Source of the DNA: Paramuribaculum sp.
Lineage (GTDB): Bacteria > Bacteroidota > Bacteroidia > Bacteroidales > Muribaculaceae
DNA length: 19,776 bases
Direction: 5' to 3'
Assembly (NCBI GenBank): GCA_029051965.1
Contig: JAIDJZ010000394.1
Location: 1-19,776 of the forward strand
Shown here piece by piece: positions 6,518 to 19,776 of the stretch. A program made the translations under genes and the position numbers. Below the pieces are notes generated by a model. It did not search any database and was not told where the DNA came from. It was given only the letters and a program-made list of their open reading frames with translations. Every line of letters begins with the position of its first letter. The first letter of the stretch is position 1.

Positions 6518-7957
6518 TTATTCTTTGTCGCATAGCTGCTTTAGCTGACGGTTGAATTCGAAGATGTCGGGTGCAGATGGGCACTGTGGTGATTTCTTGG
6601 CGGGTTTGCGGGGTTTTCTGAGTTTTTCAGCCACGTTTGCTGCAGAGCCGCAGATTGCGTGGTTGACCAGGCCTGTGGCGAAGAGCGTTTCGACTTCCTG
6701 CAGGAGTTCTCCGGCATGAAGACTGACGATTGCGTCAATGAGAAATCCGGCGAAGTCGGCGTCGCAACCGTCGGTCTGCGGCAGCCGGTCCGGTAGGGAT
6801 CTGAGCAGCCGCCGGAAGATGGCGATTATTGTACGTCGCCGTCGGGGCACTGCTGCTGCGATGCTGACAAGTGCTTTTGCCGCCAGATTGCGCTGGTGTG
6901 ATAGTCGGCCGCGTTCGTAGAGGAATCTTTCGATCGGTGCCGGATCGGATTTGGCTGCGGCGCAGAGGGCGGAGGTGAGCAGTGGAGCTGAGTCCGCAAG
7001 ATGGAATTCAAGGAAGCTGTTGCTTTGCCGCATTATTTCGAGGATTGCTTCCGTGGCCTGGGGGCAATCGATCTGCGACAGGATGAGCAGGGCATGGATA
7101 AGGGTGGCTTCGTCGGTGTCGTCGAGAACCGACTCTTCGATCTCATTGCGTGTGCGTCCGATTTCGAAGAGTATGATGTCGGCGATGTCGGCGGCGAGTT
7201 CCGGCGCATCGACAGAGAGAATCCGTCTGATTGTTCTGTCGGACAGTCCGGTGAAATTTCCTTTGCGCAGCAGGGCGTCGGAGATGAACCGGTTGCGTAC
7301 ATGAAGCCGTCGGGGGTAGGGCGGAGGCGTGTAGGAGTAGGTCTCCGAGGGATAACACCGGTTTTCTTCGGCAGTCGGGTCGGGATGAGTGGCTGCTGTC
7401 GGATCGATTGTGTCGAATTGATCGCCCAGATGATGGCGGAGTGTCTTGATTATAGCGTCGTAGTTTTCGGGCGGACGCATGATGAGAGTGTGGCGTTCGT
7501 TGATTCCGAATTCATATTCAATAACCGGAATGCTGTCAGAGTCTTCTTCGAGCGCGAATCGGGCGAGCGCGAATCCGGCAGCAGGATTCAGTCCGGCCTC
7601 ACGTGCGAATTCAATTGATCCGTAGATGAGGTTGTGGATTTCATCGTAGGTCGTTTCGGCTGGGGACGCAAAAGTGTCTGTCGGAGCTAATGATCCGGCG
7701 AATTCGTCGGGGGAAACGCTGACACGGCAGACGGCATCGATAACGCCCCGGCAGAGAGGATCGACGGTGAACGAAGCTGTGACGAGATTGCCCCCCGGGC
7801 GCTGGCGGGTGACTATGGCCTGTGCGAGGCCGCGTTCCTTCCAGTCGGGATTGATGTAGCACCGGCCGACCGGAAGCGTGCGTGCTTTCTCGCGCATGAA
7901 TTGTTGGGGCGAGAGTGGCGGCCGGCAGTTTCGCTTTTTTGAAATCTTTTTATTCAT
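6518..7957 (-). CDS. DUF1186-type HEAT-like repeat protein
   Basis: 479 residues from ATG 7957 (MNKKISKKRNCRPP). A longer frame adds 34 residues that overlap the upstream gene, and is rejected. The basic N-terminus is followed by a region of about 200 residues (LPVGRCYINPDWKERG, DEIHNLIYGSIEFAREAGLN, IPVIEYEFG). I associate this with DUF1186-like proteins of Bacteroides from memory only. The helical C-terminal half (EATLIHALLILSQ, EAILEIMRQSNSFLEFHLAD, TIIAIFRRLLRSLP, ADFAGFLIDAIVSL, LQEVETLFATGLVN) has the layout of DUF1186. It is cytoplasmic with no signal. The start codon overlaps the end of the upstream SanA-like gene by 8 bp, implying translational coupling. It shares clear homology with the partial gene at 19237-19776. 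The molecular function of the family is not known to me. Confidence 0.8.
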   Translation of the reverse strand: MNKKISKKRNCRPPLSPQQFMREKARTLPVGRCYINPDWKERGLAQAIVTRQRPGGNLVTASFTVDPLCRGVIDAVCRVSVSPDEFAGSLAPTDTFASPAETTYDEIHNLIYGSIEFAREAGLNPAAGFALARFALEEDSDSIPVIEYEFGINERHTLIMRPPENYDAIIKTLRHHLGDQFDTIDPTAATHPDPTAEENRCYPSETYSYTPPPYPRRLHVRNRFISDALLRKGNFTGLSDRTIRRILSVDAPELAADIADIILFEIGRTRNEIEESVLDDTDEATLIHALLILSQIDCPQATEAILEIMRQSNSFLEFHLADSAPLLTSALCAAAKSDPAPIERFLYERGRLSHQRNLAAKALVSIAAAVPRRRRTIIAIFRRLLRSLPDRLPQTDGCDADFAGFLIDAIVSLHAGELLQEVETLFATGLVNHAICGSAANVAEKLRKPRKPAKKSPQCPSAPDIFEFNRQLKQLCDKE

Positions 7958-8660
7958 CTGACGTTTGGTGGGTTGCCGCGTCGTTGCCTGCGGCAGGGGC
8001 GGGTGGAATCGGTTGTGATCCGGCTTTGACGTCGGCTTCTTTTCGTGTGAGAATGTCAAGAAACATCTTGACGCGGGCCAGATATTCCCGCAGTTCGTTG
8101 CGGAATCTGTTGGCTAAGACGGGAACCGGAGCGGCGTCGAAGGCTATTGCATGCAGTCCGATACGGTCGGCCAGATAGATGGATCGTTCGTTATGGAATT
8201 TCTGAGAGATGATTGTCACGGAGTCAAGGCCATAGACTTTTTTTGCCTTTACGATTGAGTTGAGAGTCCGGGTGCCTTCGTAGTCGGTCAGAATCCTGTC
8301 GGCCGGTATGCCGCGCGCTGTGAGCGAGTCGCGGATTGCCTGCGGTTCGTCGGCGCCGTTTTCTTCAGTGGAACGATAGTCGCCGCCGCTGGCAATGATC
8401 CAGTCTATTTTGCCTGCGTTGAAGAGTTCGGCGGCAGCATTGATGCGTGAGTCGAAATGGAGGTTTCGCGTCCCGTCGGCTGTGTTCGGCGATGTTGCAA
8501 GCAGTAGTCCGACTTTGTTGTGCGGAATGTCGGCTGTCGAAGAAAATGTGCGCCCGTCGGCGTTTGACGCGACAATCCGGTGGATCGCAACAGTAATTGC
8601 GATTATTATGGCCGGAGCGGTGCACGCAATGAGCAGGCGTTTTCTTATGGTTGGATTCAT
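7950..8660 (-). CDS. sanA: SanA/YdcF-family (DUF218) membrane protein
   Basis: 236 residues from ATG 8660 (MNPTIRKRLL); an ATG 33 bp further up is less likely. One N-terminal membrane helix (about 8-28) is followed by an extracytoplasmic DUF218 domain. The SanA signatures are LLLATSPNTADGTRNLHF, a GKIDWIIASGGD segment, DEPQAIRDSLTARGIP, DYEGTRTLNSIVKAKKVYG and ISQKFHNERSIYLADRIG. E. coli SanA is linked to envelope barrier function and vancomycin exclusion at high temperature; the enzymatic activity is unsettled. The last residues (Pro/Ala-rich tail) are unique. It has its own excellent promoter and overlaps the downstream DUF1186 gene by 8 bp, so the two form an operon. Confidence 0.88.
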   Translation of the reverse strand: MNPTIRKRLLIACTAPAIIIAITVAIHRIVASNADGRTFSSTADIPHNKVGLLLATSPNTADGTRNLHFDSRINAAAELFNAGKIDWIIASGGDYRSTEENGADEPQAIRDSLTARGIPADRILTDYEGTRTLNSIVKAKKVYGLDSVTIISQKFHNERSIYLADRIGLHAIAFDAAPVPVLANRFRNELREYLARVKMFLDILTRKEADVKAGSQPIPPAPAAGNDAATHQTSDE

Positions 8661-9473: not shown

Positions 9474-10655
9474 TCAATAGTTTTCGGCACGCACTTCAAA
9501 GTAGCTTTGTGCGTGGAAACATACGGGGCATACTTCGGGCGCTTCAGTGCCGATGCAGATATGTCCGCAGTTGCGGCATTCCCAGACCGTCACGCCGCTC
9601 TTGCGGAACACCTCGTGGGCTTCGACATTGCGGAGCAGTCTGCGGTAGCGCTCCTCATGGGTCTTTTCGATCGCCGCCACTCCTCGGAACTGACTGGCCA
9701 GATCATGGAATCCCTCCTCGTCGGCCTCACGTGCGAAGCGGTCGTACATGTCGGTCCACTCATAGTTTTCGCCTTCGGCGGCATGGAGAAGATTGACGGC
9801 CGTGTCGCTGCTTACTCCGCCGAGCGCTTTGCACCATAGCTCGGCATGCTCCTTCTCGTTGGCGGCCGTGTGGTCGAAGATGGCTGCGATCTGTTCGAAA
9901 CCGTTCTTGCGGGCCACGGAAGCGAAGTAGGTGTACTTGTTGCGCGCCATGCTCTCGCCGGCAAAGGCTTCCTGAAGGTTCTTTTCCGTCTTTGTGCCCG
10001 AATAGATGTTGGTCGGTTGGTCAGCGACATTGTCGGTGATCGTGACTTTTTCAAAATCGGAAGCCGGATGCTTGCAGACCGGACAGATGTAATCGTCAGG
10101 CAGCTCGTCGCCGACATATTCAAATCCGCATACTTTGCAGCGCCAGACAGTGTGGCCGGCGGCAGCGGCGGCTGATGGCTGTGGCTTCGGTTTGATGTGC
10201 TGCTGATAGTAACTGTAGGTGACCGATGGCACCGGGCTGAGAACTTCCATCTCTGTTACCTCACCGATAAACATCATGTGGGTGCCGAGATCGATTGTCT
10301 GACCCACCTTCATGCTGATGAACGCATTGGTCCCGTCGGTCACGGCTAAAGTTCCGTTGGTAACACGGCGGCTGCCCGCGAAATCCTTGAATTTGTCAAC
10401 CTCGCGGCCCGATTTGAACCCGAAACGCTCGAACAGGCTGAAAACGGCTTTTTCGCTGATGATCGAAACCGTCAGCACTCCCGATTTCCGGGCCATTTCG
10501 CAGGTCAGTGTGCTTTTGTTAAGGCAGATAGACGCTTGGTTGGGAGTGTCGGTGACCTGCTGGAACGTGTTTGACACGCAGCCATTGTCACGGCCATCGT
10601 AATTGACCGTCACGATATATAATCCGTAAGGGATCTTGAACATTGGATTCTCCAT
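9474..10655 (-). CDS. Flavin reductase-rubredoxin-rubrerythrin-rubredoxin fusion
   Basis: 393 residues in four modules. Residues 1-155 are a flavin reductase-like FMN-binding split barrel ([30 protein letters not shown]). Residues 170-205 are a rubredoxin with C173-x2-C176 and C191-x2-C194. Residues about 222-352 are a rubrerythrin four-helix diiron domain ([38 protein letters not shown]). Residues 357-393 are a second rubredoxin-like domain with C360-x2-C363 and C376-x2-C379. The family knowledge is that rubrerythrin reduces peroxide and needs rubredoxin-type electron donors; flavin reductase-rubredoxin fusions are NAD(P)H-linked donors. Together they would make a self-contained NAD(P)H peroxidase in the cytoplasm. 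An Ala/Pro linker separates modules 1 and 2. A second ATG (10643) is possible. It is a single gene with a PerR-box-like site upstream. Confidence 0.92.
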
Positions 10656-10987: not shown

Positions 10988-12037
10988 ATGAACAAATTCA
11001 GAGTAATCGGAGCAGGATCAGCATTCCTTATCCTTGCAGGAATCAGTTGTTGGGCGACAGAAAAATCGTTACACATGCTTTTGCCTCCAGGATGGCCTGA
11101 AATTCTGGTCTGGGGTATCACAATCGCTTTCTTCGCTGTAGCATCAATCGGTACAAAATTAATTGCCGACTCCCTGATGTCGCAAGGCTTTGTAGAAAAC
11201 CGAAAAGGGAAATTATGGGGAGGAATTTTACTGGTCGTATTCTTTTGGCTGATAATGAGTATGCCGACCAATACTCATACGTTCTTCTACAATGATAAGA
11301 TTGGGTCTGTAATTTCCGAAGATATTGAAACCACTAATAAGTATTTGCAGCAGGTCGTCGAATTAGGAACCTCCTCGTCAAAAGTGCTTGATGAAGAGGG
11401 TAAAAGACTGAAAAATATTGTTGAAGAGCAGAGAACACATATAGTTAAGCAGTTTAATGGTGATGAGCCTCCTTATCGGAGAGGAAACGGACAGAAAATC
11501 GCGGATCACCTGAAAGTTATTAATGACGCTCTTAACTCTTCAATTAAGCAGCATCCTGATTACAATAGTACCAATCCTGCCATTCTTAACGGATATCAGG
11601 CGGAAATAGATCGGGCATTGGAGCACGCACTGAGAACACACACAATTTCTGATCAATCCATACAAGCTGCGAGACGTCAGAAAAATCGTCTGACTGCGCT
11701 TAATGATTCAATTAAAGACCACATCGCATCCACCAGTTTGACTGAAGAGGAGATCCGCCAGTGTGAAAAAGAATTGAAAGATGGATATAACATTATCGCT
11801 ACAAACAAAACCTTCATTCAGTTTGATAAAGACTCGGATGATGAAGAGGTCTACACAAATGAAAATGCAACGACCAGAACCAAAAGAATGTCTTCGGTAA
11901 TCGATGTGTTTTTTGTGGATTTTCTGGGTGGGAAGTTCCCCGGGGCATTCTGGTACTATGTCATACTATCGATTCTGGTTGACATAGCGGCCTTTATATT
12001 TTTTGACATCGCATTTATGAAGAAAAACAATAACTGA
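10988..12037 (+). CDS. Four-helix membrane protein with large extracytoplasmic helical domain
   Basis: 349 residues, not recognised as a known family. Membrane helices are visible at about 6-23, 38-59, 75-91 and 321-343. Positive charges at the N-terminus, in the loop 60-75 (NRKGK) and at the C-terminus (MKKNNN) place both ends inside. This leaves residues 92-320 outside, in the periplasm if the protein is in the inner membrane. That domain is strongly helical and charged (DEEGKRLKNIVEEQRTHIV, IQAARRQKNRLTALNDSIKD), probably coiled coil. First gene of the cassette, 7 bp before the GTPase gene. It may be the membrane receptor or platform of the system; no enzymatic motif was seen. Confidence 0.8.
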   Translation: MNKFRVIGAGSAFLILAGISCWATEKSLHMLLPPGWPEILVWGITIAFFAVASIGTKLIADSLMSQGFVENRKGKLWGGILLVVFFWLIMSMPTNTHTFFYNDKIGSVISEDIETTNKYLQQVVELGTSSSKVLDEEGKRLKNIVEEQRTHIVKQFNGDEPPYRRGNGQKIADHLKVINDALNSSIKQHPDYNSTNPAILNGYQAEIDRALEHALRTHTISDQSIQAARRQKNRLTALNDSIKDHIASTSLTEEEIRQCEKELKDGYNIIATNKTFIQFDKDSDDEEVYTNENATTRTKRMSSVIDVFFVDFLGGKFPGAFWYYVILSILVDIAAFIFFDIAFMKKNNN

Positions 12038-12044
12038 AAGTAAT

Positions 12045-12965
12045 ATGGCAGATAATCTTGACCTTAAGCTGGGTGACATAACAGTAGATGATGAAACCCA
12101 AATAAATAGTGGGATTCAGAATGATGATATGACTTCCGAACCAGAGAATACTAATACCGTTATTGATGAAGACGATATCAAGATCGGTGATAAGAGAGCT
12201 CCTATCGTAATGCTGTTCGGTCCTCCGACGAGTGGAAAATCAATGACTCTCGTTCGTCTTGCCCGTTATCTTAGAAAGCAAGGCTACACGGTAAAAGCTG
12301 ATCCGACTTTTAAATCAGATAACAGATATAAGGAGCGTTGTGAACAGTTCCACCGGAATCTCAATACGACTGAAGCTCTTAAAGGTAATGGCCTGAATGA
12401 GTTCCTGATGTTGAAGGTTATCAATCACGGTGCTACAGTCTGTCAGATTCTGGAGGCCCCCGGCGAGCATTATTTCAATCCTCAGAAACCGGAAGAGGTC
12501 AGCGCGCGCAATTTCCGTCCGTATCTGACAGAGATTATCCGCAAGCTATCTAATCGTAAAATTTGGGTTTTTATTACAGAAGCCGAATGGGATGTGCATG
12601 CATCCGTAAAAGATTCATATGTCTCTCGAATCAGAGGTTGCAAACACCAACTGATGAGACCTACAGACAGGGTTGTAATCCTATACAATAAAGTAGATCA
12701 AAAGGAAGAGTTGTTCGAAAACGGGGAACTCCACTTTTCATCTGCCGAAAGGGCAATGAAAGATGAATATGATGGTCTGTCAGGTGTGTTCAGGAACAGT
12801 AACCCTATTACCAGTTTATGGAGACCTTACAACTATAAATTCGTTCCTTTCTGCACAGGATATTATACTACTCAGCTTGGTCGCGAATACATGAAGTATA
12901 ATGAGAGTGAGGAACACTATCCTCGCCTTTTATGGACAGTGCTTATGAAATGTATAAAAGGATAA
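12045..12965 (+). CDS. P-loop GTPase of the cassette
   Basis: 306 residues, cytoplasmic. The first about 50 residues are acidic and probably disordered. The GTPase core then shows Walker A G59-P-P-T-S-G-K-S66, a switch II-like LEAPGE (E137-A-P-G140, Glu in place of the usual Asp of DxxG) and the guanine-specificity motif N215-K-V-D218. This pattern is that of TRAFAC-type GTPases, such as those in predicted bacterial conflict systems (DO-GTPase families), though I cannot confirm the family. The C-terminal third has HFSSAERAMKDEYDGLSG and an aromatic-rich tail (TSLWRPYNYKFVPFCTGYYTTQ). Sitting between two membrane-protein genes with 4-7 bp gaps, it is likely the nucleotide-driven switch of the system. 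Confidence 0.85.
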   Translation: MADNLDLKLGDITVDDETQINSGIQNDDMTSEPENTNTVIDEDDIKIGDKRAPIVMLFGPPTSGKSMTLVRLARYLRKQGYTVKADPTFKSDNRYKERCEQFHRNLNTTEALKGNGLNEFLMLKVINHGATVCQILEAPGEHYFNPQKPEEVSARNFRPYLTEIIRKLSNRKIWVFITEAEWDVHASVKDSYVSRIRGCKHQLMRPTDRVVILYNKVDQKEELFENGELHFSSAERAMKDEYDGLSGVFRNSNPITSLWRPYNYKFVPFCTGYYTTQLGREYMKYNESEEHYPRLLWTVLMKCIKG

Positions 12966-12969
12966 TGGC

Positions 12970-14388
12970 ATGAGTACGGTTGATATATATATTCACGGAA
13001 CCCCGAGAGGTCATCAGATCTGGGGTAGTGGGAGCAATCATGATTATATAAGCATTTTTTACAATCATGATTCAGAGGCAAAGGAGCCGGCTGTGCTTCA
13101 GGCGGATATTTGCGGTGGAGATTCGTTCTACACTTATATCCGCAGCAAGAAGGTCTTTGATGCCGGTGGGCGTCCCGGAGCATTTTTCGCGCTTACAGTA
13201 AGTTTTAAGAAGGCTTATTGCACTAATGTTTATATGTTATATCAGCTATTTGAGGCTGTCTATAATCAGTTATGTGTAGGATCTATAATAGCGAAGGATG
13301 GAACGACAGAGAAATTTTTGGTAGATGATTTCACGAATGCGCGTTCCGGCACATCGGCGACTGTTGATAAGATTCAGGCAGCTTTCAGTCAGAAGATTGA
13401 AGAGCTGATTGCTCCAAGCCTTATGGAATTGACCTCGGGCGATACAATCAACAGACCCCAAAAAACTGTCAGCCTTTTGGAAGTTGACAGTCCATTGTTT
13501 TTTGACTGGTTCAAAAAGCATTCTCTCATTGTTTCTCCGAATACGCAACCATTGGCTTTATCCTATGAAGGGGTGGTCAGGGAGTTGAAAGAGGCTAATG
13601 CCAGTAAAAAGGTTCTTACTGAAGACAATGCTAAATTGCAGTCTGATTTGGACACTATTACTCGGAAAAACGATGAACTGTCTCAAGAGCTCCAATTGTT
13701 GTCTTCTTCTATCGGAAAGAAAAATAGTGGCAAAGTCGATCAATTGCAACAGGAACTGGATAAAGTCACAGAAGAACGCGATTCTCTTAAAACAAGAATT
13801 GCGGAAGCTGCGAATTCGATTGACATGATTGACAAGCCAATAAAAACTCTTGCCCGCCTTCTGGCGGGTCGATTTCCTAAGGATGATTGTTCGGAAGCTA
13901 AGGAAAATAATGAAAATACACCGAAAGTTCTTAAGACTTCTTTACGTACAATATGGCGTGACAGGCTTAATAGTATACTTCTCGGTGCTATTTTTATTCT
14001 TTCTGTTGTTATACTATATTTTGTTTTAGATAATCGCCATTCAGATGTTGTGGTAAAAGAAACACCGAAGAAAATTGCTGAAATCGAATTAGAAACAGAC
14101 ACAGCCAATTATGCCGATCGTGATATCTGTAGGATAGATATTGAGGACGGTGGCGATATAGTTGAAAAAGGTAAAGAATATAGTTTGCGGGTCTGTCCGA
14201 AAGAAACATTTCCGTCCGGAGTAAAGATTCCTGCGGGAGTGTGGAAAGTTGAGGTGGAAACCGATCACCCGTTTAATAATGGCGACCGGTTTACTGTTCC
14301 GTCTGAACTTAATTCAGGGACAAATATACAGATTATGTATCAAGTTGCAGATTCGGTCTATCTGAGTCGAGTGATAACTATAGAATAA
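12970..14388 (+). CDS. Bitopic membrane protein: cytoplasmic domain, coiled coil, outside beta domain
   Basis: 472 residues. Residues 1-125 form an alpha/beta domain starting VDIYIHGTPRGHQIWGS, which faintly resembles the GAP1-N1 (GTPase-associated) pattern H-G-Y-x-x-G-H; this is inference. Residues 126-200 are a second soluble region. A coiled coil covers about 203-287 (LTEDNAKLQSDLD, VDQLQQELDKVTEERDSLK). A single membrane helix lies at 335-353 with basic residues before it (RTIWRDR), so the N-terminus is inside. The outside C-terminus (354-472) looks beta-rich and Ig-like (GVWKVEVETDHPF). The whole plan and N-terminal sequence recur in the gene at 14914. The start lies 4 bp after the GTPase stop, which suggests the two proteins work together. 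Confidence 0.82.
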   Translation: MSTVDIYIHGTPRGHQIWGSGSNHDYISIFYNHDSEAKEPAVLQADICGGDSFYTYIRSKKVFDAGGRPGAFFALTVSFKKAYCTNVYMLYQLFEAVYNQLCVGSIIAKDGTTEKFLVDDFTNARSGTSATVDKIQAAFSQKIEELIAPSLMELTSGDTINRPQKTVSLLEVDSPLFFDWFKKHSLIVSPNTQPLALSYEGVVRELKEANASKKVLTEDNAKLQSDLDTITRKNDELSQELQLLSSSIGKKNSGKVDQLQQELDKVTEERDSLKTRIAEAANSIDMIDKPIKTLARLLAGRFPKDDCSEAKENNENTPKVLKTSLRTIWRDRLNSILLGAIFILSVVILYFVLDNRHSDVVVKETPKKIAEIELETDTANYADRDICRIDIEDGGDIVEKGKEYSLRVCPKETFPSGVKIPAGVWKVEVETDHPFNNGDRFTVPSELNSGTNIQIMYQVADSVYLSRVITIE

Positions 14389-14397
14389 ATTTAGTGT

Positions 14398-14910
14398 ATG
14401 ATAAAAAGAGTCTTGTTATTATTTTTTTCCTCTCTGCTGATTTGTTTTACTTCATGTGAGAAAAAAGCATCAAAGCCGCCATATAATCTTGATCAGAACT
14501 TGAAGAATGGAATCAAAATTTCATATGAAGATTTAGGTGGGGTTAAGGTCATACCTGTGAAACTTAATGGTGTTACTATGAGTATGATATATGACACTGG
14601 CTGCTCTGGTGTGCACATATCATTGAACGAACTTCAGACATTAGTGAAGAACGGGAAAATAGGTGCAGAGGATGTGATCGGAGTTGCCTATTCGACAATT
14701 GCTGACGGTTCGATTGTCCAGAATGGGTTGATAAATATCAAACAGATTGAGATCGGAGGTAAAGACGAGTCGATAGTTCTCAATAATGTGGAAGCCAGTG
14801 TTGCCTTGAATCAGGATGCTCCGATACTACTGGGTAATGCCGTTCTTGATGAACTGGCTTCTGTGGAAGTTGACAATGTGGAAAAGACGATTAACTTTTA
14901 CAAGAAATAA
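14398..14910 (+). CDS. Lipoprotein retropepsin-like aspartic protease
   Basis: 170 residues. A lipoprotein signal ends at C20 (SSLLICFTSC). The mature part is one retropepsin-like domain: VKVIPVKLNGVTMSMIYDTGCSGVHIS carries the active-site D66-T-G in the form DTGCSG, where Ala is usual after Gly. DAPILLGNAVLDEL (L144-L-G-N147) is the second conserved element (usually LLGxxFL). As with other single-domain retropepsin-like proteases, it should act as a homodimer. It would sit in the periplasm or on the outer membrane. It lies between the two bitopic-protein genes with gaps of 9 and 3 bp, so their outside domains, or the gene 1 periplasmic domain, are candidate substrates or partners. The protease call is strong; the substrate is unknown. 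Confidence 0.85.
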   Translation: MIKRVLLLFFSSLLICFTSCEKKASKPPYNLDQNLKNGIKISYEDLGGVKVIPVKLNGVTMSMIYDTGCSGVHISLNELQTLVKNGKIGAEDVIGVAYSTIADGSIVQNGLINIKQIEIGGKDESIVLNNVEASVALNQDAPILLGNAVLDELASVEVDNVEKTINFYKK

Positions 14911-14913
14911 ACT

Positions 14914-16113
14914 GTGAATTGCTCAACGTATGTATTTGGAGAATTGTCTCGTGGTTATACTCAATATCCAGAAGACAGTTCTTCAAATATTTTTAAAGAG
15001 ATCGAGTCTGATTGTCTTGCGCCGACACAGTTGATTGTGCATCGGGATGAAAACCTGATGTACTATATCTATGTGCGGAAATTAGACAAGAAAAAATTTA
15101 TCGGGTTATCCGTTGTTATTAATGGCTATTATCTGACGCGCATCCAATCTCTTTTTTCATTATTTGAAAAAGAAATTGAAAAATTGACTGAAAAAGGGGT
15201 TATAATTCATCTCACTGAAGAGGGTGACATTTCGTCAAAGTTGGCTTCTTTGTCTGATGAAGAGGAGGAAGTTATATCTGTCGTAAATACTCTGCAAGTA
15301 AAAATTAATTCGATGGCGAGAATCAAGCGACTTCCTCCCGCTGATTTCTCGGTTTCAGTATCCTCCAGAAAGATATTTAAGGAGACTGATCCAATGACTG
15401 AAATAGCAGAAGCCTCATGTCGTTTCGGGTTTACAGTTGTTTTGAAAGAAAAAGACTATGATACGATAAGGCTGACAAGTTTCAAAAACATTCTGAAGAA
15501 TCTCAATGCAGAGAAATTCGCTTTAATTAAAGAGAATGAAAGCTTGCGGGAAGTTAATAGGACAATCCAGCGACAGAAAAATAATTTCAAAAAAGTTGTA
15601 TTCCTGTCACTTGTCTTGGTTGTTTGTGGAGTTGGGGCAATCTTTCTTTATTTCAGCCTGAATGACGCTAATGTGCAACTTGATGTAGCGCGTCGGACAA
15701 TCAACGAAAAAGATGTCAAAATAGAAAATCGGGATCACAGGATTTCGACTCTCCGAGACTCTGTGAAGTCGCTTAAAGAAGATGTAGAGAGGGCGAAAAC
15801 ATCAAATGAAAAGCTGGAGTCAAAGCTGCAGACGGTAATGAGCTATTATCCTTTTGCGGTTACCAAGTGTGAGGTGAACAACAGCAGATTTAAGTTTGAT
15901 TATTATTGCACTCAAGAGAAGGAGGTGACAGTTACTCTCAAAGCAATCAATGAAACCAGTGGTGAAGAAGTGATAACGGGGACTTATACACTGAAATTTA
16001 ATGAGGGTACGGGGTCAAAAGAACTGATTTATAACAATCCGCTTAATGGATGGTGTGATTACTATGTTGTTCTGATTTATAACGGCAATGTAATCGCCGG
16101 CAAAGACTGGTAG
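14914..16113 (+). CDS. Second bitopic membrane protein, paralogue of the 12970 gene product
   Basis: 399 residues with a GTG start 3 bp after the protease stop. The next in-frame ATG is about 48 codons in and would remove the start of the conserved domain. The N-terminal domain (CSTYVFGELSRGYTQY, LMYYIYVRKLDKKKFIGLSVVI, LFEKEIEKL) aligns with that of the 12970 product (FYTYIRSKKVF, FFALTVSF, LFEAVYNQL). A helical linker leads to one membrane helix at 228-249, preceded by KKNNFKK (inside). Outside are a coiled coil (about 250-312; ENRDHRISTLRDSVKSLKEDV) and a C-terminal beta domain with four Cys that could form disulfides (313-399). Compared with its paralogue, the coiled coil has moved from the cytoplasmic to the outer side. 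No enzymatic motif. Confidence 0.82.
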   Translation: MNCSTYVFGELSRGYTQYPEDSSSNIFKEIESDCLAPTQLIVHRDENLMYYIYVRKLDKKKFIGLSVVINGYYLTRIQSLFSLFEKEIEKLTEKGVIIHLTEEGDISSKLASLSDEEEEVISVVNTLQVKINSMARIKRLPPADFSVSVSSRKIFKETDPMTEIAEASCRFGFTVVLKEKDYDTIRLTSFKNILKNLNAEKFALIKENESLREVNRTIQRQKNNFKKVVFLSLVLVVCGVGAIFLYFSLNDANVQLDVARRTINEKDVKIENRDHRISTLRDSVKSLKEDVERAKTSNEKLESKLQTVMSYYPFAVTKCEVNNSRFKFDYYCTQEKEVTVTLKAINETSGEEVITGTYTLKFNEGTGSKELIYNNPLNGWCDYYVVLIYNGNVIAGKDW

Positions 16114-16132
16114 AATTCAAACGACGATTGTC

Positions 16133-17839
16133 ATGAAATTCATAACTTTTCTCATCTTATTTTTTCAACTATCATTTGCGCTTTGTCTATGTTCCTGCGG
16201 AAATGAAAAGTCGGCAACGGCCTATCGGCTCTCCGCATTGCCGGTCGAGGATAATGAACGCGATAGTTATGGCTTGCTTGGGGCAGACGGCAAGATTCTG
16301 TCGGCTGATTTTGAGTATGCTCCAGGTCCGGTGGTCAATGGTTATTTTTCTGTGCACGACAGTTCCGCTACGGTTGCTCTCTGTCGAGTGGATGAGTCGG
16401 GTTATCATGTTGTTTCCAGTGCATCGGGCTACTCGGAATTCGGCATAATGAATGACGATCGCATTCCCGCTTGTCGTGGAGAGGAGCGTATTGCCATTCT
16501 TGATGGTGAGGGCAACTGTCTGTTTTCTCTTACAGAATTCGATGGTCGCGAAGTCAGGAGTTGCGCGAGCTACAGCTGCGGTAAGCTGAAAGTCGTTTTG
16601 CAGGATGGCGCGGTGGGCTATGTGGATAAAGCGGGCAACAAGCTCTTCGAACAGACCTTTTTGTGGGGAACGGATTTCGTGAATGACAAGGCTCTGGTCG
16701 AATATTCCGAAAATGAATATGCTCTTATTGATGGAAATGGCAAGAAACTGTTCTCCTTTTTCGGTGTCGATGAGGAATATGTGAAAATTTCCCATGAATA
16801 TTCGTATATCTGTTCGAAAAACGATGAAGATCGGGTGACAGTCTACGATTTTTCAGGACAGAAAGTGTGTGAATGTCCTGAGAAGGTTGAGGAAATCCAT
16901 AGTTTCGGAAAAGACGGCTTCATTTTCAAGAAAGATTATGAATATGGTCTGATGGACTATACGGGATCGGAACTGATCAGAGCCAGATATGAGCAGCTCG
17001 TGTTTAACGGAAACACTCTGTTGGCAATCGATGAAGACAGGGATGACGAAATCCTCCTGCTGGATTTTACGGGAAAAACCATAGGCACACTCGACGGAGA
17101 GGAAATCTACTCACCTCAGGAATACGGATTCGAATTCTTTAATCTGATCAAACGTGAAGATGACGAAATCTATCTCATTGATCATGACGGTAGGAGAGTT
17201 GGCGAACCCATGAACGTCTCTGTTGACCTTGATGATCTGTTCTCGGCCGGGATTGTTAACAGTCTCTATTTCCCAAAAGAAGAAGTGTTGAGGGAGGTGA
17301 TGGGATTATGTGGAAACGGAGCCGGGTTAGATCGTAGTCTTGGTGTCTTTTATTTTGATGACGGCCGCTTTTGCAAACCTTCAGATATCAGGCTGATAAA
17401 GGACTCTCCGATAGATGCGCTCGAGGGTAAAACGAAATTTTCGCAGACTATATCGTCAGGTATGAATTATTCACTTGACATTGAGTTCCTTTTCAGTGAG
17501 CCTATCGTCAACCGTGGTTCCGGAGTGCTGAATTCTTTGGCTACGTTTTCAGGAATGAAAATAACGGTTTCCACGTCGGATATATTTACGAGTGCCGCCT
17601 TCTTTAATTTGTGCCGGCGAACTCTTGTAGAAGAATATGGCTGTGGGATAATCTCTCAGAACAGGAACGATTATCTCTTGGCAGGCAAAGATGAGGATGA
17701 TGAGAATTTAATAATACTCATTCATTATGATCCGCAGAGTCATTTTATCTGGACGGGTTCAGGGGGGCGTTTTTATATCTTCCTGAGGCCGCGAAACACT
17801 GTTGCTTCTTGGACCGAAATAATTCAGAAAGGTTCTTAG
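16133..17839 (+). CDS. WG-repeat-like lipoprotein
   Basis: 568 residues. A lipoprotein signal ends at C22 (FALCLCSC). Residues about 35-360 contain repeats of the WG type, in the form Y/I-G/A-hydrophobic-D-x-x-G-(N/K)-x-(L/I)-F. Examples are YGLLGADGKIL, IAILDGEGNCLF, VGYVDKAGNKLF, YALIDGNGKKLF, VTVYDFSGQKVC, YGLMDYTGSELI and IYLIDHDGRRVG. These build beta-propeller or solenoid folds used for binding. The last 200 residues form a separate domain (ISSGMNYSLDIEFLFSEPIV, HFIWTGSGGRFYIFLRPRN) that I do not recognise. It is the last cassette gene, 19 bp downstream of the previous one and noticeably GC-richer than genes 1-5, so it may have joined later or be host-derived. Likely outside the inner membrane as a binding partner of the system. 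Confidence 0.82.
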   Translation: MKFITFLILFFQLSFALCLCSCGNEKSATAYRLSALPVEDNERDSYGLLGADGKILSADFEYAPGPVVNGYFSVHDSSATVALCRVDESGYHVVSSASGYSEFGIMNDDRIPACRGEERIAILDGEGNCLFSLTEFDGREVRSCASYSCGKLKVVLQDGAVGYVDKAGNKLFEQTFLWGTDFVNDKALVEYSENEYALIDGNGKKLFSFFGVDEEYVKISHEYSYICSKNDEDRVTVYDFSGQKVCECPEKVEEIHSFGKDGFIFKKDYEYGLMDYTGSELIRARYEQLVFNGNTLLAIDEDRDDEILLLDFTGKTIGTLDGEEIYSPQEYGFEFFNLIKREDDEIYLIDHDGRRVGEPMNVSVDLDDLFSAGIVNSLYFPKEEVLREVMGLCGNGAGLDRSLGVFYFDDGRFCKPSDIRLIKDSPIDALEGKTKFSQTISSGMNYSLDIEFLFSEPIVNRGSGVLNSLATFSGMKITVSTSDIFTSAAFFNLCRRTLVEEYGCGIISQNRNDYLLAGKDEDDENLIILIHYDPQSHFIWTGSGGRFYIFLRPRNTVASWTEIIQKGS

Positions 17840-17895: not shown

Positions 17896-17920
17896 GGCAG
17901 TCTGATTCTGCTGCTTTTTA
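17896..17920 (+). terminator. Weak terminator candidate at the cassette end
   Basis: A 5 bp stem with one wobble, GGCAG (17896-17900) and CTGCT (17908-17912), is followed by GCTTTTTA. It sits about 60 bp after the cassette stop and touches the end of the converging Vat-like gene. The stem is short, so the call is tentative. Confidence 0.3.
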
Positions 17921-18589
17921 TGACTGGGGATGCTGACTCTGAAGATATTTTTCTATTTCGCTTTTGGCCTGGGCAATGTCGGGATTGGAGAGCATCGGTA
18001 TCAGCAGATCAATCTCCTCAATCGGGCGGTTCCACCATTGGAGGCGCTCCAGAAGATGTATCATCTCATCATCGAATCTGCGGCGTAGGACTCTTGCCGG
18101 ATTGCCTACAGCAACAGAAAATGGCGGAATGTCTGAAGCTACTGTGGCGTTAGTTCCGATTATGGCACCGTCGCCGATATGTACGCCGGGCATGACTGTC
18201 ACGTTCTGTCCGATCCAGACGTCGTTGCCGATGACCGTGTCTCCTTTTAGCGGCAGCTCATCCATAACGGGGGCGATCGCGCCGCCCCAGTCTCCTCCCA
18301 TGATATAGAATGGATAGGTTGTGGCGCAGTCCATCCGGTGGTTGGCGCCGTTCATGATGAAGGTAACCCCCCTGGCAATGGCGCAGAAGTTTCCGATTAT
18401 CAGTCTGTCGCCGATGAAATCATAGAAGTGTGTGACATGCTCCTCGAATTTGTCGGCACCGTCAATGTCGTCGTAATATGTATAGTCTCCGATGATAATT
18501 CTCGGATTCTTCACCACATTCTTTATGTAGCAAAGGCTCGGGATTGCTGGATTGGGGAAAGCCTTGTCTTTGTCTGGGAATACTTTCAT
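17918..18589 (-). CDS. Vat/CatB-like xenobiotic O-acetyltransferase
   Basis: 223 residues from ATG 18589 (MKVFPDKDKAF), close to the roughly 210-220 of Vat/CatB enzymes; upstream in-frame ATGs would add an unrelated 33-residue leader. It is a left-handed beta-helix hexapeptide acetyltransferase. Characteristic segments are GDYTYYDD, FYDFIGDRLIIGNFCAIARG, FIMNGANHRMD with the catalytic His, PLKGDTVIGNDVWIGQNVTV, PGVHIGDGAIIGTNATV, VGNPARVLRRRF and LQWWN. Known relatives acetylate streptogramin A or chloramphenicol with acetyl-CoA. Chromosomal relatives may have other substrates, so resistance cannot be concluded. It converges on the GTPase cassette and has its own -7 element. Confidence 0.9.
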   Translation of the reverse strand: MKVFPDKDKAFPNPAIPSLCYIKNVVKNPRIIIGDYTYYDDIDGADKFEEHVTHFYDFIGDRLIIGNFCAIARGVTFIMNGANHRMDCATTYPFYIMGGDWGGAIAPVMDELPLKGDTVIGNDVWIGQNVTVMPGVHIGDGAIIGTNATVASDIPPFSVAVGNPARVLRRRFDDEMIHLLERLQWWNRPIEEIDLLIPMLSNPDIAQAKSEIEKYLQSQHPQS

Positions 18590-18663
18590 ATTGGGGATTG
18601 GCTGTAGTCGACACTTTTCGGTTACTTCGGTTTCGCCAAAACTCAAAAAAAACAACCGATGCG

Positions 18664-18671
18664 CAAAAATA
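18664..18671 (-). promoter_or_regulatory. -7 element of the Vat-like gene
   Basis: Minus-strand TATTTTTG matches TAnnTTTG, about 75 bp upstream of the start. The -33 match is poor. A 12-base inverted repeat, TTGAC-AA-GTCAA (18717-18728), lies upstream and might be an operator. Confidence 0.45.
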
Positions 18672-18824
18672 GTCATTTTCGCGGACAACGGCTCTATGGC
18701 CAGGGAATAAAAATGCTTGACAAGTCAAAATCCAAACTATGACAGATCAACTTTTTAATCCTTCGTCATCGTAGTCATTAAGTGTATATTGAATATAGCA
18801 TCCAATACCATTTCTCAAGGATAG

Positions 18825-19236: not shown

Positions 19237-19776
19237 CTATTCGGGTTTCGTTATGAATTTTTTGAGACTGTCATACTGTTCATATATGTCAGGAACCTGA
19301 TATTTTTCATTGCGTATTGCTCCGCGACCGAGTTCGATGTCTTTGATGACTTTTTTGCAGTCTCCGGCTATGGTCTTATTCACACAATCTGTTGCGAATG
19401 TATCTTTGATCTCCGGTATAAGTTCACTCGCGTCTATGTCCATCAGATTGCTCATCACGAAACCGGCGAATGTTCCGTCACACGCTTTCTGAACGGGAAG
19501 GTTGGAGGTCATGTTGTTTAGAAGCCGTCGGAACGCATCGATAATTTCGCCACGTCTTTCCGGCTGATTGAAGATTATCATTGCTAAAGCATCGGGTGCC
19601 TGTGAGCGGAGATAAGAGTCCAGTCCGGGTTGATTCAGATACGCTTCTATTGCGGTGATATTATCCTTGCCACACGCATAAAGAGCAGGGTGTAGTAGTT
19701 CCGGAGTCAGGTCGCCAAGATGATAGTCGGCAAACTCATCGGTCTGTCGCATAATCTCAAGAACTGCATCAAGACC
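19237..19776 (-). CDS. DUF1186-type protein, partial (N-terminus off window)
   Basis: The frame stays open to the window edge, adding GLDAVLEI before the first ATG at 19752. That ATG is internal, because GLDAVLEIMRQTDEFADYHLGDLTPELL aligns with EAILEIMRQSNSFLEFHLADSAPLL of the gene at 6518. The visible 179 residues are the helical C-terminal half (EIIDAFRRLLNNMTSNLP, CDGTFAGFVMSNLMDI, LIPEIKDTFATDCVNKTI) ending YDSLKKFITKPE. The two share the pattern of DUF1186. The domain structure of the missing part is unknown. Function unknown; probably cytoplasmic. Confidence 0.8.
   Translation of the reverse strand, partial: GLDAVLEIMRQTDEFADYHLGDLTPELLHPALYACGKDNITAIEAYLNQPGLDSYLRSQAPDALAMIIFNQPERRGEIIDAFRRLLNNMTSNLPVQKACDGTFAGFVMSNLMDIDASELIPEIKDTFATDCVNKTIAGDCKKVIKDIELGRGAIRNEKYQVPDIYEQYDSLKKFITKPE

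Follow-up and report, generated by a model that had tools for sequence, protein, structure and literature searches.

We analysed a stretch of 19,776 nt from Paramuribaculum sp. (forward strand of contig JAIDJZ010000394.1, assembly GCA_029051965.1; the whole stretch is referred to here as the window) and found that five of its genes, A-B-C-D-E, are a conserved operon-like cassette that occurs patchily in gut Bacteroidales. The cassette encodes a predicted four-transmembrane (four-TM) protein (A), a predicted Ras-like GTPase (B), two bitopic paralogues with predicted longin-type domains (C and E) and a retropepsin-like lipoprotein (D). Among the literature matches listed, no other case was found in which membrane-spanning longin-type proteins occur as a pair together with a retropepsin outside the cytoplasm; the parts are of known folds and B is of a known superfamily.

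In the window the cassette belongs to a block of six co-directional open reading frames (ORFs), A to F, at positions 10988–17839, all on the + strand and separated by gaps of 7 (A–B), 4 (B–C), 9 (C–D), 3 (D–E) and 19 bases (E–F). The GC content of the block is 0.413, compared with 0.516 for the remainder of the window. The original prediction for this DNA had described six tightly spaced, AT-rich and co-directional genes with parts on both sides of the inner membrane. The ORFs, their spacing and their composition agree with this description, and the two-sided arrangement is borne out as a prediction by the TM scan and the lipoprotein signals. A cytoplasmic NKVD GTPase and a lipoprotein with an intact DTG aspartic protease motif, both part of the same description, correspond to B and D, respectively. 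The term bitopic adaptor suits C and E, which have one TM segment each, but not A, which has four.

That the set is an unnamed one, as had been proposed, is supported by profile scans with Pfam, PADLOC and NCBIfam, which matched no named system. Of the Pfam families matching C, 25 of 35 are listed, and only weak sub-cut-off NCBIfam matches were listed. PADLOC gave no named system for any of the six and, among the matches listed, no full-length match to the core; those listed were, for B, matches over a short P-loop stretch (mad8, 41 residues) and, for C, matches to coiled coils (25 of 27 listed). No description of the cassette or of the combination of its parts was among the matches listed from the open-licence literature.

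Recurrence, gene order and transfer

The protein database contained 267 homologues of B at E ≤ 0.001, and B was present in 15 of 297 genomes of the window's family (its own genome included). Wider genome scans, performed with a B profile of 25 rows at E ≤ 0.001, gave matches in 10 of 393 genomes of the order (four strong, own included), in 7 of 296 genomes phylum-wide (the sole strong match being the own genome), in 7 of 15 genomes of f111 (one strong), in 15 of 121 genomes of family f79 (11 strong) and in 8 of 120 genomes of family f41 (seven strong); the matches not counted as strong were short P-loop matches. Carriers of the cassette include Bacteroides fragilis Q1F2 and metagenome-assembled genomes labelled Phocaeicola, Prevotella, Paludibacteraceae and Muribaculaceae, as well as a short record, L021, from one labelled Lachnospiraceae. 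A homologue of B is also recorded from Parabacteroides distasonis.

The set of loci that was compared (n = 45) comprised the window, L018–L040 and L091–L111. L001–L017, being shorter versions of the window, L018–L020, L026 and L031–L040, were omitted; later short loci were replaced by L091–L111, and weak short P-loop matches were left out. The loci were collected via B, which is hence present by construction, and the profiles for A, C, D and E were built from the window and the loci up to L040. All 45 loci contain a collinear, co-directional subset of A-B-C-D-E. The order is exactly ABCDE in 33 of them, and 35 have an ORF at all five core positions. The 21 loci fetched after the profiles had been built yielded A in 21, C in 20, D in 19 and E in 19; for the earlier loci, single window proteins had mostly sufficed to retrieve the partners at E ≤ 1e-3. 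GTPase B, retropepsin D, the bitopic pair C and E and the four-TM protein A recur as a set across Bacteroidales; the outcome that would have refuted the original prediction by its own terms, a lack of joint recurrence, did not arise.

The departures from this order are few. L037 reads BABCDE, with an extra B ahead of A, and L111 reads ABBCDEE, with split ORFs; B is split in L105 as well, and L036 has two copies of B. C was not found in L093, and E was not found in L097, although an E-like ORF comes next there. L021, L036 and L105 stop at or close to the end of a contig. D is missing in L031, L035, L101 and L102, and also in L022, where a signal resembling that of D continues directly into E (L022:12327-13205, a lipoprotein signal of the D type fused to the second half of E, by natural deletion or by an assembly fault). 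The protease recurs with the other core genes, but some cassettes lack it or carry a replacement. An additional protein of 212–215 residues, exported as judged by eye, was observed between C and D in L038 (11983-12630) and L039 (5089-5727), and C–D gaps of similar size are seen in L103, L110 and L111.

The cassette was likely acquired by transfer, as had been suspected from the AT-richness of the window copy; this is indicated by its patchy presence, by its low GC content and by mixing in the GTPase tree. The GC content lies below that of the flanks in 21 of the 22 loci compared, and the flanking genes vary from locus to locus. In a tree of 50 GTPases, from which L105 and L111 were omitted (B pieces of less than 200 residues), the starred groups that hold the f41 genes L107 and L110 have all their other members from the window's family. 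The gene of P. distasonis belongs to a clade of nine (100/100) that also includes those of the window and L018–L020 and one from Duncaniella.

Predicted core proteins

Gene B (12045–12965) encodes a protein of 306 residues with a P-loop, GPPTSGKS (residues 59–66; 12219–12242), and a guanine-specificity motif, NKVD (residues 215–218; 12687–12698), in which K216 and D218 are invariant and N215 is conserved at 90% or more. At the site of DxxG in Ras-like proteins it has ExPGE, with Glu replacing the usual Asp (EAPGE in the window, residues 137–141; 12453–12467); E137, P139, G140 and E141 are each conserved at 90% or more in the alignment of 25 rows. The predicted fold of B was nearest to Rag/Gtr, Arf/Arl and YsxC chains, consistent with a G domain of the Rag/Arf class; YcjX and MglA were absent from the best 50 rows of this comparison, which excludes neither.

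The Pfam family DO-GTPase2 (PF19993) was not among the 14 families matching B at E ≤ 1, and no match to it was found in the window's genome. A protein at L044 matches DO-GTPase2 slightly above the cut-off, and it and its homologues at L127 and L129 carry ExSGE or DFAGE. Using hhalign, the B profile was aligned with a three-row profile of these proteins (97.0%, E 7.9e-11, 240 columns) and with a six-row profile that included further DO-GTPase2 proteins (96.9%, E 1.5e-10, 183 columns). Single DO-GTPase2 proteins gave 77.2% (L044) and 24.6% (L041), and other P-loop proteins gave 53.6% (20 columns), 51.9% (110 columns) and 13.2% (24 columns), these controls having one or two rows and unequal depth. 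On the profile-level alignments with DO-GTPases, set against the controls, B is a distant relative of the DO-GTPases.

Cousin loci of these GTPases were also observed. At L045:4884-16808 one gene run encodes a subtilase-like protein, a long-loop membrane protein, a DO-GTPase2-type GTPase, a one-TM adaptor, a lipoprotein and a vWA-like protein (all domains except the GTPase assigned by eye); L127 and L129 are further such loci. L045 and L127 share with the cassette the order membrane protein, GTPase, adaptor, but homology to the cassette proteins could be demonstrated for neither the adaptor nor the membrane protein. Against the C profile the cousin adaptor scored 2.3% (one sequence) and 26% (three sequences), and its start appears longin-like by eye; profile comparison of A with the TM protein of the cousin loci gave no signal. 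In a Bacteroidales genome, L043:290-3468 encodes, in this order, a protein resembling Hsp70 (by eye) and two proteins of the DO-GTPase type.

C (12970–14388; 472 residues) and E (14914–16113; 399 residues) each have a long N-terminal soluble domain and, by hydropathy scan, one TM segment (residues 335–353, 13972–14028, in C; residues 228–246, 15595–15651, in E). A single TM segment was called for C in 39 of 44 loci and for E in 30 of 41; in seven of the eight E proteins with two calls the surplus call lies at residues 65–100, inside the N-domain. The N-domains are predicted to be cytosolic because basic residues lie just before the TM segment. They are better conserved than the outer parts in 9/9 comparisons for C and 7/8 for E. 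Comparison of the two N-domain profiles with hhalign gave 98.3% (E 1.4e-14, 176 columns), while an unrelated control pair, D and C, gave 0.2%; at the level of profiles, C and E are paralogues. In a structure model of C (mean pLDDT 83.4), residues 1–150 (12970–13419) are predicted by fold comparison to form a longin fold like that of the regulators of human Rag GTPases, followed by a coiled coil, the TM segment and a predicted periplasmic β-sandwich of MG/Ig-like type (residues 380–472; 14107–14385). The corresponding domain of E (14914–15363) is predicted to be longin-type by homology to C. Searches of PDB profiles with C and A gave nothing useful.

The possibility that C or E is a GAP1 protein was considered and dropped: no GAP1-N2 domain (PF20013) was found in the window's genome, and the C and E profiles scored less than 1% by hhalign against one GAP1-N2 protein. 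Because these tests failed, the cassette was not classed as a DO-GTPase/GAP1 system.

D (14398–14910; 170 residues) has a lipoprotein signal that ends in SC, with Cys20 (14455–14457; invariant in 19 alignment rows) as the predicted lipidated residue, and an intact Asp66-Thr-Gly as the predicted catalytic site (14593–14601). Its matches to two Pfam families of retropepsin type exceed the cut-off (PF13975, E 3e-9; PF13650, E 1e-7), and it gave weak profile matches to the solved retropepsins ApRick (E 0.019) and DDI1 (E 0.2). Among 38 ORFs at the D position, 35 have D[TS]G; L025 has DPG, L104 has DNG and L030 has an unrelated lipoprotein that is no retropepsin, although the D alignment (A4) includes it. 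Family profiles and the D[TS]G site thus identify D as a retropepsin-like protein of clan AA with putative protease activity.

A (10988–12037; 349 residues) was found in all 45 loci. It is a predicted inner-membrane protein with TM segments called by hydropathy scan at residues 6–24, 38–56, 76–94 and 325–343. The last two are separated by a loop of about 230 residues (residues ~95–324; 11270–11959), which is predicted to be periplasmic from the TM positions and the distribution of basic residues. Four TM segments were called in 37 of the 45 loci, and two of the eight proteins with other calls (L105 and L109) reach a contig end.

Possible mechanism and alternatives

We tentatively favour an inside-out chain as the simplest one that uses all of the parts. 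In it, GTPase B would dock on the two longin-type membrane proteins, and its GTP/GDP state would be relayed outward to control proteolysis by D. C and E may form a longin pair that binds B as a GTPase-activating protein, as a guanine-nucleotide exchange factor or as an effector platform; the nucleotide state read by this pair would be passed on through the TM segments and the coiled coil, and the outer parts of C, E or A would hold or release D. A may be a scaffold partner. The target of D would be a protein of the envelope, with the outer domains of C and E, or else the accessory lipoprotein (in the window, F), as the most probable substrates. Each step from the binding of B to the cleavage is one that we infer.

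The cassette resembles the Rag/Gtr GTPases and their longin regulators (folliculin–FNIP, Lst4, NPRL2–NPRL3 and C9orf72–SMCR8) in that, according to the fold matches, a Rag/Arf-class G domain is accompanied by two co-encoded longin-type partners. It differs in being bacterial, in having partners with their own TM helix and outer domain and in having a protease motif on the far side of the membrane; no DENN family was among the Pfam matches listed, and the likeness observed is one of predicted fold. We regard it as a doubtful proposition that the cassette is a bacterial, membrane-spanning counterpart of the Rag GTPase–longin systems which drives an aspartic protease across the membrane and travels as a transferable unit with varied surface lipoproteins. 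Longin-platform GTPase signalling is familiar mainly from membrane traffic and nutrient sensing in eukaryotes. If the inside-out chain is true, bacteria use such signalling across their inner membrane as well and couple it to proteolysis in the periplasm. It would constitute an unstudied envelope switch in common gut commensals, would bear on the origin of longin regulators and would provide an operon-encoded, genetically tractable system (with a copy in B. fragilis Q1F2) with candidates for the GTPase, the regulator pair and the output protease.

Two bacterial systems can be set beside it: the soluble MglB with its GTPase MglA, and LapD with LapG, a cysteine protease. MglA–MglB, as described in the source excerpts used, likewise combines a small Ras-like bacterial GTPase and a longin-related platform within a single operon; the platform there is MglB, a GTPase-activating protein of the roadblock type, whereas that of the cassette is membrane-spanning and made of two paralogues. 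The closest working parallel, again as described in excerpts, is LapD–LapG, in which a cytosolic nucleotide signal and a membrane receptor determine whether a periplasmic protease is sequestered or free. It uses cyclic di-GMP where the cassette has a GTPase, and LapG-type protease and receptor domains were not among the Pfam matches listed. The literature used in excerpts includes PMC11237479, PMC3521125, PMC10933270 and PMC4359373.

The chain could also run from outside to inside: an envelope cue would cause D to cut the periplasmic part of C or E, by which the longin pair would be altered and the GTPase reset, as with a site-1 protease. PerP, a periplasmic protease that cuts the bitopic protein PodJ, provides a precedent. 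D lies between its presumed substrates C and E in 34 of the 45 loci (the L030 replacement not counted), and in both C and E variability is greater in the outer part. Neither outer part has, however, an invariant or near-invariant column that could be a shared cut site, and the D-less cassettes L031, L035, L101 and L102 retain both C and E. We judge this outside-in chain, with its cleavage of C or E by D, to be rather unlikely in itself but almost as probable as the inside-out one.

Because of the kinship of the GTPase and the variable 3′ gene, some probability, lower again, is left for a DO-GTPase-type conflict or anti-phage system in which infection would be sensed by the core and the effector would be either the protease or the product of the variable 3′ gene. 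The cassette shares with the DO-GTPase/GAP1 systems, as described in excerpts of Kaur et al. (2020; PMC7159879), a distantly homologous GTPase with a PGE-type motif like that of the L041 DO-GTPase2 protein, a downstream partner gene, membrane-anchored parts, variable extra genes and mobile neighbourhoods, and the signs of transfer described above fit such a role. An adjacent co-directional gene for an exported or membrane protein follows the core in 14 of 39 loci (those with at least 600 bases past the last core gene; genes of at least 160 residues with a signal or TM segment at a gap of at most 130 bases, exported character being read from a simple signal/TM pattern). These genes include a subtilase lipoprotein in L030 (slightly above the cut-off) and a leucine-rich repeat protein in L091; in L027 (15720-16520) the second gene past the cassette encodes a lipoprotein DNA/RNA non-specific endonuclease (PF01223, E 2.7e-56). 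The remaining 25 of the 39 loci have no such gene. B lacks a DO-GTPase2 match in Pfam, and neither a GAP1-N2, GASH or FNIII part nor a zinc ribbon was found in the cassette (for GASH and FNIII, in the listed Pfam matches of the six proteins); the cassette instead adds two longin-type bitopic paralogues, a four-TM protein and a retropepsin lipoprotein, and the words 'retropepsin' and 'aspartyl' are absent from the main text of PMC7159879. B had no match in viral contigs, plasmids or phages, one of these searches having used two short peptide patterns.

Defence-island enrichment was not seen either. PADLOC matches at E ≤ 1e-20 were found for about 9–10 of the 130 nearest genes and about 7–9 of 97 farther genes, both sets lying within about 10 kb of the cassette, with genes of more than 900 residues or touching a locus end left out, L095 taken from the set picked by eye, and member counts read from family tables (one showing the best 25 of 54 rows). 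Ten flanking proteins picked by eye include matches to HEC-01, PDC-M13/M10, PDC-S02 and PDC-S72, which lose weight because nearest and farther genes do not differ. The conflict-system reading mentioned in the original prediction therefore lacks support in its present form, while B is still a distant DO-GTPase relative.

An envelope-assembly or surface-display machine, with A, C and E as scaffold, B timing assembly and D maturing an accessory lipoprotein, is improbable: the coiled coils, the predicted membrane or lipid anchors of A, C, D and E, the accessory lipoproteins of some loci and a TssR-like protein after the cassette in L099 are in its favour, TssNQOPR being a known envelope complex of Bacteroidota (excerpt of PMC10781749), but no secretion, sheath or pilus genes were noticed alongside when the loci were read by eye (no search was made), 25 of the 39 loci lack an adjacent exported gene, and the listed Pfam matches of the six proteins include no type VI secretion system (T6SS) family, neither TssN/Q/O/P/R of the membrane complex nor a family that would link the cassette to TagF, a T6SS repressor and accessory protein.

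Accessory genes and window neighbourhood

Under the favoured inside-out chain, F would be a possible substrate. F (16133–17839; 568 residues) has a lipoprotein signal and a weak match to WG repeats (E 0.02, under the cut-off). Seventeen homologues were found among 7998 database candidates scored, and equal contig sizes suggest that two lie on the contig of a B homologue (P0189/P0002, 8049 bases; P0185/P0010, 23847 bases). As a core part F was ruled out: phmmer gave no match at E ≤ 0.1 among the ORFs of the other 44 loci. Of the WG-repeat lipoprotein originally included in the system, the lipoprotein signal stands; the repeats are weak, and the gene is accessory to the core.

One family recurs immediately after E in five loci (L027:14470-15720, L029:14301-15569, L108:8594-9862, L101:8177-9073 and L102:9254-10168). 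Its members are lipoproteins in three loci and shorter, TM-anchored proteins in two; papain-like C-terminal motifs were seen by eye, and the four members scanned had no Pfam match above the cut-off. The 3′ gene of L024 encodes a TonB_C protein, and in L092 a TM protein is followed by a BACON-domain protein. L022 has an exported protein of 1280 residues slightly outside the 130-base gap limit. In L099 a zinc-ribbon/TM protein is followed in the same run by the TssR-like von Willebrand factor A protein (PF20782, E 1.3e-17), and the next genes encode, as judged by eye, an ABC-type ATPase and a membrane protein; no T6SS gene was recognised there (L099:8467-14858). This contrasts with the statement, in the excerpt of PMC10781749, that homologues of the TssNQOPR membrane complex were not detected outside T6SS loci.

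In the window the cassette is adjoined by a gene at 17918–18688 (−) for a hexapeptide-type acetyltransferase (by eye). Among the 34 genomes of the genus, two others have strong matches to it, with different genes around them. When this gene was used for an empty-site comparison with stretches from two genomes, it was the only gene in common. Two related proteins, encoded at 6518–8059 (−) and 19237–19752 (−), flank the region and are the only members of their cluster. The gene at 9474–10655 (−) encodes a protein of 393 residues which, from its motifs by eye, we take to be a fusion of flavin reductase, rubredoxin and rubrerythrin.

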